Positions 3 to 3,608 of a stretch of 34,360 bases of DNA are shown in pieces. The DNA comes from Hahella sp. HN01 (GTDB lineage Bacteria > Pseudomonadota > Gammaproteobacteria > Pseudomonadales > Oleiphilaceae): NCBI RefSeq assembly GCF_018986435.1, contig NZ_JAHMIN010000036.1:1-34360 (forward strand), in the 5' to 3' direction. Below the pieces are notes generated by a model, which was given only the letters and a program-made list of their open reading frames with translations, ran no database searches and was not told where the DNA came from. Made by a program: the position numbers and the translations under genes. Numbering within the stretch: the stretch's first letter is position 1; each line of letters starts with the position of its first letter.

Positions 3-18
3 TGGCATGTGGGCTGCA
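3..18 (+). promoter_or_regulatory. sigma-54 (-24/-12) promoter upstream of rsr and the Y RNA array
   Basis: TGGCATG, four bases, then CTGCA: GG at 4-5 and GC at 16-17 are exactly 12 bases apart, as in the RpoN consensus TGGCACG-N4-TTGCW (two mismatches, neither in the invariant GG or GC). In Salmonella the rsr-Y RNA-rtcBA operon is sigma-54 dependent and activated by RtcR, so the context supports the call. Transcription would start near 28-30, about 105 bases before the rsr ATG. The activator gene would lie outside this window. Confidence 0.75.
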
Positions 19-134: not shown

Positions 135-1697
135 ATGGCGAGTAAAACACTATTCAACACCCAGCGCGGAAATATGGCGCCTGCAGCGGACACCCTTAAT
201 CAGGCCGGCGGCCTGGCTTATAAATACTCCGCAGAGCATGCGCTGGCGCAGTACGCGGTGACCGGATGTTTCACCAGCACATTCTATGCTTCCGCTGAAG
301 ATCAGTTGGAAAAAGTCATGGAGTTCGCCGCTCAAGTAGAGCCTGAGTTTATCGCAAAATTGGCGGTGTTCGCTCGGGAGCGCGGCTTCATGAAAGATAT
401 GCCAGCGCTGTTGACTGCGATACTGACTGTGCGGGCGCCGGAACTGGTTCCTGCTGTGTTCAAGCGGGTCATTGATAACGGCCGTATGGTGAGAAACTTT
501 GTGCAGATCATGCGTTCCGGCGTTGTTGGACGGAAATCCCTGGGAACCATGCCCAAGCGGCTGGTGAAAGAGTGGATCAACGCTCGTGGCGAGTCTTCTT
601 TGTTCATGGATTCTGTCGGTGCGTCGCCTTCGATGAAGGATGTCATCAAGATGGTGCGGCCAAAGCCGGAAAACCTGATGCGGCAGGCTCTGTACGGTTA
701 TCTGATCGATAGAGAATACGATGCGGAGAAGCTGCCGCAGGTTGTGCGGGATTATGAGGCCTTTAAGGCGGATCAGTCTCAGCCGCTGCCGAAAGTGGAG
801 TTTCGGTTGCTGACAGCGCTGAACCTGACGCAAGCGCATTGGGCTGGCATCGCCCGCAATGCGGGATGGCAGATGACGCGGATGAACTTGAATACCTTTG
901 CGCGGCAGGGCGTGTTCAATGAAAAAGGAATGGACCGTGTGATCGCTGACCGTCTGCGTGATGAGAACGCCATTCGCAAGGCTAAGGCGTTTCCGTACCA
1001 ATTGATGGCTGCTTACACCATGGCGGGCGAAGGTGTGCCTAAAATGGTGACGGAGGCCTTGCAGGACGCGATGGAGATCGCGCTGCAGAATGTGCCGGCG
1101 CTGGAAGGTCGGGTTGTCGTGCTGCCGGATACCAGCGGGTCTATGACTCAGTCGGTATCAGGTTATCGTCCCGGCGCTTCCAGTAAGGTGCGGTGTATTG
1201 ATGTCGCCGCTCTGGTGGCTGCGGCTATCCTGGCGAAAAACAAGGATGCGGAGATTCTCCCGTTCGCGACCTCAGTGCATCAGGTGCGTTTGAATCCCCG
1301 GGATTCGGTGATGACCAACGCGACCAAACTGGCGCAACTGGGCGGCGGCGGAACGAACTGCTCTGCGCCTCTGGTGGAGCTGAACCGACGCAAAGCGGAG
1401 GTGGATACGGTGGTCTTCGTTAGCGATAACGAGTCATGGATTGATACGAACAGCCGTTATGCGGGGTACAACTCAGGGACGGCGGTGATGCAGGAGTGGC
1501 TGAAGCTGAAGCAGCGTAACCCCAAAGCAAAAATGGTGTGTATCGATGTTGTGCCCAATGCGTACACCCAGGCGATGGAGCGTGATGACATCCTGAACGT
1601 GGGAGGATTCTCCGATCAGGTGTTCACCGTGATGAAGTCCTTTTTGAGTGATAACCCACAGACCTGGGTGCGCACCATCAGGGAAATCGAACTGTAG
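135..1697 (+). CDS. rsr: TROVE domain protein, bacterial Ro60 orthologue
   Basis: About 520 residues, the usual Ro60/Rsr size. The N-terminal two thirds is the TROVE HEAT-repeat ring that binds the 3' ends of misfolded RNAs in its hole and Y RNA on its outside. The C-terminal third is a von Willebrand A domain with an intact MIDAS: D332-T-S-G-S followed by GGGGTNCS and FVSDNESW. Rsr acts in RNA quality control and, with Y RNA, tethers PNPase. I chose the ATG at 135 because GGGAG lies 8 bases before it; an in-frame GTG at 90 has no ribosome binding site and adds residues not typical of the family. The sigma-54 promoter at 3-18 and the Y RNA array directly downstream make a complete Ro RNP locus. 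No rtcB or rtcA gene follows within the window. Confidence 0.95.
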   Translation: MASKTLFNTQRGNMAPAADTLNQAGGLAYKYSAEHALAQYAVTGCFTSTFYASAEDQLEKVMEFAAQVEPEFIAKLAVFARERGFMKDMPALLTAILTVRAPELVPAVFKRVIDNGRMVRNFVQIMRSGVVGRKSLGTMPKRLVKEWINARGESSLFMDSVGASPSMKDVIKMVRPKPENLMRQALYGYLIDREYDAEKLPQVVRDYEAFKADQSQPLPKVEFRLLTALNLTQAHWAGIARNAGWQMTRMNLNTFARQGVFNEKGMDRVIADRLRDENAIRKAKAFPYQLMAAYTMAGEGVPKMVTEALQDAMEIALQNVPALEGRVVVLPDTSGSMTQSVSGYRPGASSKVRCIDVAALVAAAILAKNKDAEILPFATSVHQVRLNPRDSVMTNATKLAQLGGGGTNCSAPLVELNRRKAEVDTVVFVSDNESWIDTNSRYAGYNSGTAVMQEWLKLKQRNPKAKMVCIDVVPNAYTQAMERDDILNVGGFSDQVFTVMKSFLSDNPQTWVRTIREIEL

Positions 1698-1719
1698 CCA
1701 GGGATCTTGGTGGAGAAAA

Positions 1720-1739
1720 AGGCCGTCTGCGGGCGGCCT
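1720..1739 (+). terminator. GC-rich hairpin between rsr and the Y RNA array
   Basis: AGGCCGTC pairs with GGCGGCCT around a TGCG loop, 23 bases after the rsr stop. The nearest T-run (TTAATTTTT) starts 12 bases later, so this is not a textbook intrinsic terminator. It may be a partial terminator, an mRNA 3'-end stabiliser or a processing signal that separates rsr mRNA from the first Y RNA. Confidence 0.4.
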
Positions 1740-1765
1740 GATTCGAAGGCTTAATTTTTGATATT

Positions 1766-1884
1766 GGCGAATGCTTGTATGACTACATTAACCATTTGGT
1801 CCCGGGTTCGAGTCCCGGCGGTTGGCTGACAACCGTAGCGCAGTGGTAGCGCGAGCGTAGATGTCATACGACCTTTTTGTCGCT
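1766..1884 (+). ncRNA. Y RNA 1 (YrlA-type, with tRNA-like module)
   Basis: Ends pair: GGCGA (1766-1770) with TCGCT (1880-1884), then an internal loop, then GTATGAC (1777-1783) with GTCATAC (1863-1869). The 5' strand carries GGCGAATG, matching the bacterial Ro-binding motif GNCGAANG. Inside lies a permuted tRNA mimic: T-arm 1802-1818 (5-bp stem, loop TTCGAGT), a 6-bp acceptor-like stem CGGTTG/CAACCG closed by a 5-base loop (1819-1835), then a D-arm GCGC-AGTGGTA-GCGC (1838-1852). There is no anticodon arm. A TTTTT run follows at 1889-1893. Order and parts match Rsr-associated YrlA RNAs. Exact ends are not visible from sequence. Confidence 0.88.
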
Positions 1885-1894
1885 GGTCTTTTTA

Positions 1895-1956
1895 GGCCAA
1901 ATGCTGGTCAGGATTACATTTTTCCCAAATAACTTCCTGGCTGTTTTTTGTTGGCC
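1895..1956 (+). ncRNA. Short Y-like hairpin RNA s1, no tRNA module
   Basis: GGCCAA (1895-1900) pairs with TTGGCC (1951-1956). After an internal loop that is T-rich on the 3' side (TTTTTT), 1905-1913 pairs with 1935-1943. The 5' strand GCCAAATG is one base off the Ro-binding motif GNCGAANG, and the loop opens with TTACAT where the full Y RNAs have CTACAT. The 21-base loop has no T-arm or D-arm. It looks like the Ro-binding half of a Y RNA alone; whether it is a separate RNA or part of a longer precursor is unknown. Confidence 0.55.
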
Positions 1957-1972
1957 GCCTTATTTGAGTTTT

Positions 1973-2096
1973 GGCGAATGCCTGTGTGACTACACCACTT
2001 TTAATGGCCAGGTCGCGGGTTCGAGTCCCGCCCACGCTTAAAATGGCGTGGTAGCTCAGTCGGGAGAGCAGGATTGTCACACACACTCTCGTCACC
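1973..2096 (+). ncRNA. Y RNA 2 (YrlA-type, with tRNA-like module)
   Basis: GTGTGAC (1984-1990) pairs with GTCACAC (2076-2082); relative to Y RNA 1 an A-U pair has become G-C, a compensatory change. The outer stem GGCGA (1973-1977) pairs with TCACC (2092-2096) with one C-A mismatch. The tRNA-like part has a T-arm 2015-2031 (loop TTCGAGT), acceptor-like stem CCACGC/GCGTGG (2032-2051) and D-arm GCTC-AGTCGGGA-GAGC (2054-2069), which is indistinguishable from a real tRNA D-arm. The mismatch in the Ro-binding stem is the only weakening compared with the other copies. Confidence 0.85.
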
Positions 2097-2180
2097 GAAG
2101 GGAAAGGCTTGCAAGAGCGTTTCCCCATAATGAGTAAATTATGGGAAAGCGCTTTTGCATTTGATGCAAGGGTTCTTTGG
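2097..2180 (+). ncRNA. Long hairpin hp1 between Y RNAs 2 and 3
   Basis: Bases 2111-2131 pair with 2138-2158: a 21-bp stem with a single C-A mismatch (2123/2146) and a 6-base loop. An alternative outer pairing GCTTGC/GCAAGG also exists. The segment starts with GAAGGGAA directly after Y RNA 2, as does the second copy (hp2) after s3. Parts of the two copies are nearly identical (CAAGAGCGTTTC then CCATAA) and the stem is kept by compensatory change, so it is a conserved structured element. Function unknown: possible processing site, terminator-like spacer or separate small RNA. Confidence 0.5.
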
Positions 2181-2183
2181 TAA

Positions 2184-2312
2184 GTCGGCGAATGCCCGTA
2201 TGACTACATCGGGGCTGCGAATTTCCGGGTTCGAATCCCGGCGACTGTTTACAGTTGTGGCCCATTGGTAAAGGCGCGCGGTATATGCGTCATACAAACT
2301 TTTGTCGCCGAC
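2184..2312 (+). ncRNA. Y RNA 3 (YrlA-type, with tRNA-like module)
   Basis: The best outer stem of the set: GTCGGCGA (2184-2191) pairs perfectly with TCGCCGAC (2305-2312). The inner stem is GTATGAC (2198-2204) with GTCATAC (2289-2295). Motif GGCGAATG is present. T-arm 2225-2241 has loop TTCGAAT; the acceptor-like stem CGACTG/CAGTTG has a 4-base loop (2242-2257); the D-arm GCC...GGC (2260-2275) carries the invariant GG of the D-loop. A TTTTT run (2313-2317) follows at once, so an independent 3' end is plausible here. Confidence 0.88.
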
Positions 2313-2318
2313 TTTTTA

Positions 2319-2373
2319 GGCCAAATACTTTGCAGGGCTACATATTCCGGGCCTTGCGCTACGCTTGTTGGCC
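2319..2373 (+). ncRNA. Short Y-like hairpin RNA s2, no tRNA module
   Basis: GGCCAA (2319-2324) pairs with TTGGCC (2368-2373), identical outer stems to s1. GCAGGGC (2332-2338) pairs with GCCTTGC (2351-2357), a different sequence from s1 but the same position and shape. The loop starts with TACAT, as in all members. Both s1 and s2 follow a TTTTTAGGCCAAAT junction after a full Y RNA, so they are duplicates of one element. Confidence 0.5.
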
Positions 2374-2388
2374 GCTTTTGCTCTTTTT

Positions 2389-2448
2389 AGCGAATGCGTA
2401 TTAGACTACATACTGAAACCATGCTGCGTCTTATGCATTTTTGTCGCT
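2389..2448 (+). ncRNA. Short Y-like hairpin RNA s3: Y stem without tRNA module
   Basis: AGCGA (2389-2393) pairs with TCGCT (2444-2448); 2398-2406 pairs with GTCTTATGC (2428-2436) with one mismatch. The 5' strand has GCGAATGC and GACTACAT, and the 3' strand TTTTTGTCGCT, as in Y RNA 1, yet the interior is only about 21 bases with no T-arm or D-arm. Its place in the array (after s2, before hp2) is that of Y RNA 2 in the first block. It therefore looks like a Y RNA that lost its tRNA mimic, or the ancestral form without it. Confidence 0.6.
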
Positions 2449-2546
2449 GAAGGGAAGCGCCCACAAGAGCGTTTCTCCATAACGCCAGAGCTGAGGAATA
2501 TCCTGAGTCTCAGCTTGGGGCGAATATGGAAAAGCGTTTTGGTTTG
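2449..2546 (+). ncRNA. Long hairpin hp2, second copy of hp1
   Basis: Starts with GAAGGGAA after s3. 2466-2481 pairs with 2525-2540; relative to hp1 one C-G pair (2124/2145) has become U-A (2476/2530), and the single C-A mismatch sits in the same place (2475/2531). The apical part differs and forms its own hairpin (GCTGAG...CTCAGC, 2490-2514). Divergent sequence with preserved pairing supports a selected RNA structure. Function unknown. Confidence 0.45.
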
Positions 2547-2547
2547 C

Positions 2548-2672
2548 GCTGACGAATGCCAGTATGACTACATTGATTCGCGAGGTCCCGGGTTCGAGCC
2601 CCGGCAGTCTGTAGTGACTGTAGCTCAGTAGGTAGAGCTCGCGAGATTGTCATGCAAATCTTTGTCGTCGGC
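2548..2672 (+). ncRNA. Y RNA 4 (YrlA-type, with tRNA-like module)
   Basis: GCTGACGA (2548-2555) pairs with TCGTCGGC (2665-2672). The motif is GACGAATG; its A2552-U2668 pair replaces the G-C of the other copies, good covariation for the Ro-binding stem. Inner stem GTATGAC (2562-2568) with GTCATGC (2649-2655). T-arm 2588-2604 (loop TTCGAGC), acceptor-like stem CAGTC/GACTG (2605-2620), D-arm GCTC-AGTAGGTA-GAGC (2623-2638). This is the last copy; TTTCTTCT follows. A tRNA finder might report its T- or D-arm, but there is no anticodon arm. Confidence 0.88.
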
Positions 2673-2726
2673 TTTCTTCTATAACTTCGTTCTATCCTGC
2701 TTCGATTCAATTTCTCTAGGGTGGCT

Positions 2727-3209
2727 ATGAATAAGCAACGAATTATGGCCTGTCTTCAGGACGAAGATGGAAGCACTAGGGATATCAACTTTACTCCTGC
2801 TCTCTTCGAAGATGTTGTCAGATTCGTGTCTGCGCTGTTTTCTGAGTACGGAATGGGTAGTCTTACTGATCAGGATGGGGCAGATATTGCGCTAGACGCA
2901 GAATCACTGGCCGCACTATTTGATCTTGAAACAAGCTACGCATTGGGTTTTTTTGAGTGCGAAAAAGCCATAGTGAAAAAAATACAGGTATTTTTGGATT
3001 GTCCAGAAGACGAAAAGTGTGCTGTTGAGCTGTCTTTCTTTCCTCGCGATCTTGCGGATAGCTTCGAGCCAGAAATACTTCTATCTAAAGTTCACGCATG
3101 GTGGGATATCCTTCGTTCGAAAGAATTATTTATCCGATACGAAGACCTTAGCTGGAAGCATTACGACGCCGAAGACCTAAGTGTTTTTTATCATAGGGTT
3201 AGGGCTTAA
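2727..3209 (+). CDS. Hypothetical acidic protein
   Basis: About 160 residues, acidic, soluble, with no signal peptide or membrane segment. I do not recognise the family. It has a mixed helical look with aromatic residues near the end (HAWWDILR, RYEDLSWKHYD). Its A+T content is higher than in the neighbouring genes, which hints at acquisition, and its small acidic character would suit an immunity or antitoxin-like protein, though nothing proves that. The ATG at 2727 is preceded by GGGTGG at short spacing; an in-frame GTG at 2721 is a less likely start. It lies 54 bases after the last Y RNA and could be read through from the array. Confidence 0.65.
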   Translation: MNKQRIMACLQDEDGSTRDINFTPALFEDVVRFVSALFSEYGMGSLTDQDGADIALDAESLAALFDLETSYALGFFECEKAIVKKIQVFLDCPEDEKCAVELSFFPRDLADSFEPEILLSKVHAWWDILRSKELFIRYEDLSWKHYDAEDLSVFYHRVRA

Positions 3210-3220
3210 TTAGGCCAATC

Positions 3221-3304
3221 ATGCAACCTGACCTTTATGGTTGGAGGCCACCATGGTTTACTCCATACGAGGATTTCAAGGGGGCGTGTGCGCGGTTTGA
3301 ATAG
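3221..3304 (+). pseudogene. Short ORF (27 codons), possible gene remnant
   Basis: ATG at 3221 opens MQPDLYGWRPPWFTPYEDF..., ending at TAG 3302-3304. After the stop the same frame reads GEAPVFNLLWE and stops again at 3338. The aromatic/proline-rich peptide looks like the start of a real protein that has decayed, but no ribosome binding site is evident and I cannot name a parent family. It could also be chance. Confidence 0.25.
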
Positions 3305-3365
3305 GGGGAGGCTCCAGTATTCAATTTATTATGGGAATGAATACGCGGTCCAGGTAGCCATGAAA

Positions 3366-3608
3366 TTACGGGCGGTTAATCTCGACGATATGCCAGGTGA
3401 CGTCGGTATAAGTGACTTTAGTGTCCGCTAGCGCTGCAACAGGGGCATTGATGCTGTCTTTTAGGTAGTCAGCGATGATGAGCTGGGTGTTGGCCAGCGT
3501 TTCCTCCAGCGTGCCTCCCACGCCGCAAACCAGAAGTCCGGGTATCGACGAGAAGTAGTCCGCTTTCTCACTTTGCTTGACTGCGACCCGGAAAACTAAC
3601 TTGGTCAT
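3366..3608 (-). CDS. HicB-like small protein (orphan)
   Basis: Eighty residues. The segment DYFSSIPGLLVCGVGG-TLEETLANTQLIIADYL resembles the partially degraded RNase-H-like fold of HicB antitoxins and the DUF1902 group (strand, 'P G ... G x T x E E A/T', helix). HicB normally neutralises the mRNA interferase HicA, whose 60-80 residue gene with a conserved histidine should sit next to it; none is visible on either side, and there is no C-terminal DNA-binding domain. It may be a solitary HicB-like protein or the remainder of a broken pair. A weak GAGAG precedes the ATG. Confidence 0.55.
   Translation of the reverse strand: MTKLVFRVAVKQSEKADYFSSIPGLLVCGVGGTLEETLANTQLIIADYLKDSINAPVAALADTKVTYTDVTWHIVEINRP

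Follow-up and report, generated by a model that had tools for sequence, protein, structure and literature searches.

The rsr-yrlBA-rtcBA operon of Salmonella Typhimurium and the Deinococcus RYPER complex, which comprises Rsr, Y RNA and PNPase, are the closest described systems to the locus analysed here. The excerpts available of PMC9879122 and PMC7790460 describe the Salmonella operon and its RtcR-mediated induction by tRNA fragments after DNA damage. According to the available parts of PMC6181284, PMC4726728 and PMC8394870, the Rsr ring is tethered to PNPase by a Y RNA, whose T-arm-like hairpin region contacts PNPase (PMC6181284); PNPase tethering is also mentioned in the excerpt of PMC7790460. 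Structurally, YrlA RNAs (Rfam RF02553) consist of a Ro-type stem and a circularly permuted tRNA-like domain, with the Ro stem in the place of the anticodon arm.

The window, i.e. the whole stretch of DNA analysed, covers positions 1 to 34,360 of a contig with 68,286 bases from Hahella sp. HN01, the genome of which has a size of 7.1 Mb. An rsr gene is followed by 0.9 kb lacking an open reading frame of 100 amino acids. The sequence shows rsr and, behind it, seven small RNA units separated in places by long hairpins, namely four of YrlA type, two that are YrlB-like and a bare Y RNA (S), in the order A1-B1-A2-hairpin-A3-B2-S-hairpin-A4. The following features were assigned:

3 to 18, plus strand: sigma54-type promoter-like site TGGCATGTGGGCTGCA, 116 nt upstream of the rsr start, 10 of 12 consensus positions
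135 to 1694, plus strand: rsr, Ro60 orthologue of 520 aa (Pfam vWA_Ro60 and TROVE; PDB 2nvo)
1720 to 1739, plus strand: short hairpin between rsr and the array, T run absent on the plus strand, near-same sequence by eye in the sister genomes G001, G002 and G005
1764 to 1885, plus strand: YrlA unit 1, in the alignment apparently a chimera with its left part from sister unit A-I and its right part from A-III; Rfam YrlA 61.4 bits, E 2.9e-13
1798 to 1822, plus strand: 25-nt T-arm stretch common to A-I and A-III of G005, where the alignment places the crossover
1895 to 1956, plus strand: YrlB-like unit B1; Rfam YrlB 33 bits, E 1.4e-4, gathering score 97
1971 to 2096, plus strand: YrlA unit 2 (A-IV); Rfam YrlA 66.1 bits, E 1.2e-14
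2111 to 2158, plus strand: long spacer hairpin 1, a possible processing site by its fold, kept in relatives
2185 to 2309, plus strand: YrlA unit 3 (A-V); Rfam YrlA 47.9 bits, E 2.2e-9
2319 to 2373, plus strand: YrlB-like unit B2, by its fold, its presence in three relatives and its membership, with B1, of repeat family D6
2389 to 2448, plus strand: S unit, Ro stem and inner helix without a tRNA-like module; model R1 37.3 bits, E 8.9e-8
2464 to 2542, plus strand: long spacer hairpin 2, by its fold, conserved
2549 to 2669, plus strand: YrlA unit 4 (A-VI), the last of the array; Rfam YrlA 63.2 bits, E 8.8e-14

The first-pass annotation had described four tRNA-mimicking Y RNAs behind a Ro60 gene. 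The identity of that gene was borne out by Pfam, with scores above the curated cut-offs for both vWA_Ro60 (61.1 bits, cut-off 27.7) and TROVE (29.5 bits, cut-off 23). Among solved structures, matches were to Rsr and Ro60 chains, and the best was Deinococcus Rsr (2nvo, E 1.5e-24). The protein contains the sequence DTSGSM, which we take to be a MIDAS-like motif. Including its stop codon the gene ends at 1697 and YrlA unit 1 starts at 1764, so that the units adjoin rsr.

The four long units lie where they had been placed, in a stretch running from 1764 to 2669, and have the architecture that had been claimed. Each starts with a Ro-type 5' strand (GGCGAATG in three units, GACGAATG in one), followed by a T-arm with the loops TTCGAGT, TTCGAGT, TTCGAAT and TTCGAGC in units 1 to 4, an acceptor-like hairpin that is closed, and a D-like arm whose loop contains GG. 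An anticodon arm is absent, and ARAGORN found no tRNA in the window. In a permissive covariance-model scan with Rfam, all four units matched YrlA with E-values from 1e-14 to 2e-9, which confirms them as YrlA-type; however, their scores of 47.9–66.1 bits are all under the gathering score of 69, and for this reason a default Rfam scan of the window reported zero units. Five units in G001, G002, G005 and G015 score above it (70.2–75.4 bits). While the four units are real, the array as first described was incomplete: two YrlB-like units, the S unit and two long spacer hairpins had been missed, as had the recombination history and the sigma54-type promoter. B1 matches the stem of YrlB (RF02565) and its GGATTACAT stretch and adjoins a YrlA unit, although its score is far from the YrlB gathering score. 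B2 was matched neither by Rfam nor by our own models R1 and R2, and its assignment is based on repeat, fold and relatives. B1 was likewise not reported in the window by R1 or R2, and elsewhere in the 34-kb window both models report nothing beyond the array. We concluded that the array is a real and well-supported, expanded case of an already known type of gene cluster.

With the Salmonella operon the locus shares the Ro stem, the permuted tRNA-like domain, the position behind rsr and a sigma54-type promoter. In contrast to the yrlB and yrlA named in Salmonella, four to seven YrlA copies occur in this genus, no adjoining rtcR or rtcBA was seen, as judged in part from G002, and the window units remain under the Rfam cut-off. 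With the Deinococcus system it shares an Rsr accompanied by Y RNAs with a T-arm-like region of the kind that contacts PNPase there (excerpt of PMC6181284); a role in RNA degradation has been shown for RYPER, whereas we only infer one for this array. Two other rsr loci, G676 and G597, carry tandem arrays of unlike Y RNAs with seven units each; there, however, most units lack a complete domain according to our automatic rule (2 and 3 complete).

To analyse base pairing, 16 distinct YrlA units, which come from five genomes and are related to one another, were aligned and their structure was set by hand. Pairs form in 99.0% of 413 cells, compared to 87.4% in shuffles and at most 50.4% in slid structures, a control that favours the structure because it was derived from these same sequences. 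Two-sided changes occur at 11 of 26 pairs (7.0 in shuffles; 11 reached by 0 of 500), in agreement with the earlier statement that pairs covary between copies, the quoted letters of which were right (G1767-C1883 and A2552-U2668; A1779-U1867 and G1986-C2080). The covariation score was 0.405 compared to 0.173, a value reached by none of 500 shuffles, and the number of further pair types, 24, was not above shuffles (reached by 119 of 500). Two-sided changes were observed in all five helices, including all five counted (outer) pairs of the acceptor-like stem. In the Ro stem 98.8% of cells are paired and one pair has changed on both sides; in the inner helix the values are 99.1% and three pairs.

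Bases 15 and 48, which we take to be the tRNA elbow pair in the usual numbering, were compared among 95 units whose T-stem is fully paired, each entered once (22 from the genus arrays and 73 from elsewhere), 67 of which have a D-arm that was recognised by pattern. The two bases covary between loci, with window unit 3 as an exception. C48-G15 occurs in 46 and T48-A15 in 15 of these 67; the others are two rule-breakers (T-G and C-A, the latter in the E. coli-type YrlA of L098), three T-T combinations, all in unit V of the genus and including window unit 3, and one A-T. Among the 47 units outside the genus arrays, 32 are C-G, 12 T-A and one each T-G, C-A and A-T (Fisher p 4e-9, with units treated as independent though related). 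From these combinations, the elbow geometry of YrlA units looks to be under selection.

The rsr genes of the three sister genomes G001, G002 and G005 are 98% identical to that of the window. Partitioned by script, the YrlA units that possess all of T-arm, acceptor hairpin and D-arm number four in the window, five in G002, six in G001 and seven in G005. By eye, the long form of the array reads A0-hairpin, A-I-B-A-II-hairpin, A-III-B-A-IV-hairpin, A-V-B2-S-hairpin, A-VI. G001 lacks A0; G002 lacks A0 and the A-III-B block, and its A-IV has the upstream flank of A-III; the window array is still shorter. Window unit 1 has the A-I junction before the T-arm (TTAACCATTTGG), and after the T-arm it equals A-III of G005 at every base. 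Two sister units seem to have been fused within the T-arm to give this chimeric unit. Left of the junction three bases (1765, 1775 and 1776) differ from A-I of G001 and G002, and two of them match A0 of G005, so that more than one exchange may have happened. The differences in copy number between the sister genomes fit recombination between units, and unequal recombination, once through the tRNA-like domain, would be the best explanation of the array's history. Just one YrlB-like unit, one YrlA and one hairpin are present in G015, which belongs to another genus of the same family; this arrangement is plausibly the starting state. By eye, a similar hairpin lies 3' of the G015 YrlA. No rsr was found in three further genomes of the genus (drafts), and the search of 23 other genomes of the family was negative in 22. 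Downstream of the array, similarity between the window and the sister genomes breaks off at about 2719 (150 bases compared), and a reading frame of 160 aa without a Pfam match occupies 2727 to 3206, directly 3' of the array.

Seven array pieces were compared across the four arrays. The S unit was the most conserved of the seven, with 1 of 66 columns variable and a mean pairwise difference of 0.008. The difference was 0.016–0.055 for the three YrlA units orthologous in all four arrays, 0.060 and 0.074 for the spacer hairpins and 0.103 for B2; at third codon positions of rsr, 45–81 of 521 sites differ per pair. The sole change in S, at window position 2402, puts T opposite T in the inner helix (by eye), and S may therefore be starting to fail in the window. 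S occupies the spot where the repeating pattern would have a YrlA. The two long spacer hairpins share their arms and are placed after particular units in the sister arrays. Within its own genome, spacer hairpin 1 matches only the second spacer (E 0.012), apart from chance-level matches of 14–15 bases. Both hairpins are possible RNase III sites.

A sigma54-type site was defined as at least 10 matches to a 12-position consensus, which we presume to be that of sigma54, within 200 bases upstream of rsr. On sequence match, the window, G001 and G005 score 10 of 12 and G002 scores 9. Such a site occurs in 15 of the 38 other loci for which upstream sequence was available (the 38 include L060 and what looks like one duplicate pair), compared to 1.2% of 8800 random 200-base stretches from the same loci; at that score it is absent in 23 of the 38, including all five viral-collection loci. 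The sites beside RtcR genes mostly score 11, compared to 10 for the rsr site (9 in G002). Inside the array no sigma70-like site was found. As the window begins 134 bases upstream of rsr, the upstream neighbours were judged from G002. An RtcR gene adjoining rsr had been expected in this genus, and this was ruled out in G002, where the neighbour is a di-haem oxidoreductase and the nearest RtcR match lies about 150 kb away. Three RtcR and two RtcB matches are present in the genome of the window, on other contigs than rsr. On Methylosinus and Rhizobium plasmids, rtcR is followed by rsr and, after some 0.7 kb in which Y RNA units lie, by rtcB.

To survey such arrays, model R2, which was built from 86 matches, was run on 46 rsr-bearing sources, 42 of them outside the four genus arrays. 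At E 0.05 R2 found nothing in five (L037, L040, L059, L099 and L114; the sequences of L037 and L040 end 66 and 51 bases 3' of the rsr match). L102 was left out because its three matches equal those of L098 in lengths and scores, leaving 36 loci; also outside the tabulation were two L038 rows that overlap tRNA genes, two partial L056 rows, and L060, the match values of which equal those of L057. One unit was counted in one locus, two in seven, three in seven, four in thirteen, five in five, six in one and seven in two, these numbers being lower bounds where sequence stretches stop early. The notion that one or two Y RNAs per locus are usual did not hold: with short units included, at least three were found in 28 and at least four in 21 of the 36 other rsr loci. 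It is nearer the truth for complete mimics alone, since 27 of the 36 hold none or one complete tRNA-like domain according to the automatic rule. By the same rule, the genus arrays hold 3, 4, 5 and 6 complete mimics and the other loci 0–4, the remaining units having T-arm and acceptor only, or neither; the rule undercounts, as window unit 4 was called incomplete although the script partition shows its D-arm. Several Y RNA units per rsr locus are the rule in this sample, and the genus stands out by its complete tRNA mimics, not by having an array. The counts are descriptive, because R2 was built from many of the surveyed loci and the sample is whatever the searches returned. Similar arrays near rsr occur in distant phyla, and Y RNA units lie before rsr or some kilobases off in L038, L045, L056, L057 and L058. 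In L038, a Pyrinomonadaceae MAG, rsr and YrlA units interleaved among ten predicted tRNA genes occupy 750–3447. L039, L057 and L058, two viral-collection contigs being among such loci, carry mostly short Y-stem units, and under the automatic rule a tRNA-like domain is absent from both units of L057 and both units of L058. Model R1, which was built from the units described here, found a YrlA in records labelled Salmonella phage and Escherichia phage (60.3 bits, E 2e-14), both of which carry a piece of rsr.

Taken together, we read the locus as a Ro60/Y RNA operon, induced by stress and extended by amplification of its Y RNAs, in which Rsr would feed PNPase, and give this reading a probability of about two in three. 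In its favour are the identity of Rsr, the YrlA and YrlB matches, the two-sided changes, the elbow pair, the R1 matches in the phage-labelled records, the sigma54-type sites, the rtcR-rsr-rtcB order on the plasmids and the lack of a sigma70-like site in the array. Against it speak the Rfam scores below the cut-off, the distance of RtcR from rsr in G002, the lower score of the rsr site relative to most sites beside RtcR genes, the 23 loci without such a site, and the exceptions at the elbow pair (the E. coli-type YrlA and window unit 3). RNA or DNA damage would lead to co-transcription of rsr and the array from the sigma54-type promoter through an RtcR-type activator encoded elsewhere, and the spacer hairpins may aid cutting of the long transcript. 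Each RNA would dock on the Rsr ring by its Ro stem. The tRNA-like domain of the YrlA units would then tether PNPase, so that Rsr supplies it with structured or damaged RNA, while the short units (YrlB and S) might hold or gate Rsr without recruiting PNPase. By analogy, a single Rsr would receive several tethers, the YrlA units, and several gates, YrlB and S, from the array, and more copies would raise and balance the supply of these RNAs.

How the copies themselves are to be understood is less certain. Among dose, specialisation and decoy function we place dose first, because copy numbers differ so much between sisters. If the units were interchangeable and amplified only for more Y RNA per Rsr, copies could range over 4, 5, 6 and 7 in close relatives while the remaining units stay, and T-loops and Ro stems would be alike, as observed. 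However, the units have not been homogenised but stay distinct, and among the compared pieces S is the best conserved; we consider pure dose the leading candidate of the three, though less likely than not. Acceptor-like stems are unlike between units, and the three orthologous units have kept their own stems across the four species, a pattern that fits specialised scaffolds, the idea of the first-pass annotation, and equally an increase in dose. A unit-specific acceptor-like stem and D-arm might recruit a different partner or substrate, with T-arm recombination mixing them. By eye and without statistics, D-arms resemble different tRNA types, e.g. TAGCGCAGT..GGTAGCGC is as in tRNA-Pro of this genome, and unit 2 has the T-arm of its tRNA-Asp; halves of this kind are exchanged in the apparent chimera. 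However, the four species are closely related, and the kept stems may reflect only their short divergence; in many other arrays, units lack a complete domain, so that the diversity may be a sign of decay. We regard such diversification as unlikely. Somewhat more doubtful still is a function of the YrlA units as decoys that soak up enzymes or nucleases attacking the tRNA elbow and so spare tRNAs during stress. It would agree with the apparently selected elbow geometry, with the RtcR-linked tRNA clusters also present in the genome, and with the suggestion, in the available part of PMC7790460, that uncut YrlA could competitively inhibit an anticodon nuclease; yet without an anticodon arm there is nothing to attract such a nuclease, and the Ro stem would be needless. 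It is a little less probable again that the array is an evolving set of scaffolds, in which crossovers in the near-identical T-arm combine the 5' half of one YrlA with the acceptor and D-arm part of another, giving new tRNA-like adaptors that would bring different partners or substrates to one Ro60 ring, with the near-invariant S as gate. Finally, a decaying tRNA cluster or mobile repeat that came to lie behind rsr by chance, as the tRNA-like T and D arms and the repeated units might suggest, was rejected as the origin of the array, above all for the four long units, on the ARAGORN result, the compensatory changes in the helices and the undispersed spacer hairpin 1, and similar arrays near rsr in distant phyla likewise make it highly improbable.

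RtcR paralogues away from rtcB lie head to head with 3–10 tRNA genes in 8 of the 11 loci fetched (L070 and L071 of G000, L161, L163, L164, L165, L167 and L168), and no tRNA cluster was found beside RtcR in L162, L166 and L169. A sigma54-type site precedes the tRNAs in 7 of these 8 loci. Among the tRNAs of the G000 clusters are divergent second copies of isoacceptors that are also encoded elsewhere, e.g. those for Asp, Trp, Cys and Glu. These clusters look like damage-induced back-up tRNAs. The nearest published case, in the available part of PMC10272220, is a stress-induced trn operon of Anabaena; TrcR represses both this operon and rtcB there, and the organism is said to be free of RtcR. A published description of an RtcR-tRNA cluster was not found in the titles and opening lines of abstracts among the matches listed. 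The RtcR-linked tRNA clusters are possibly more novel than the Y RNA array.

Arrays of this kind may be undercounted, because a default Rfam scan reports no unit of the window. One Ro60 gene can accompany up to seven different complete tRNA mimics, and with their 4, 5, 6 and 7 copies the four close relatives are a natural series that allows dose to be told apart from specialisation.
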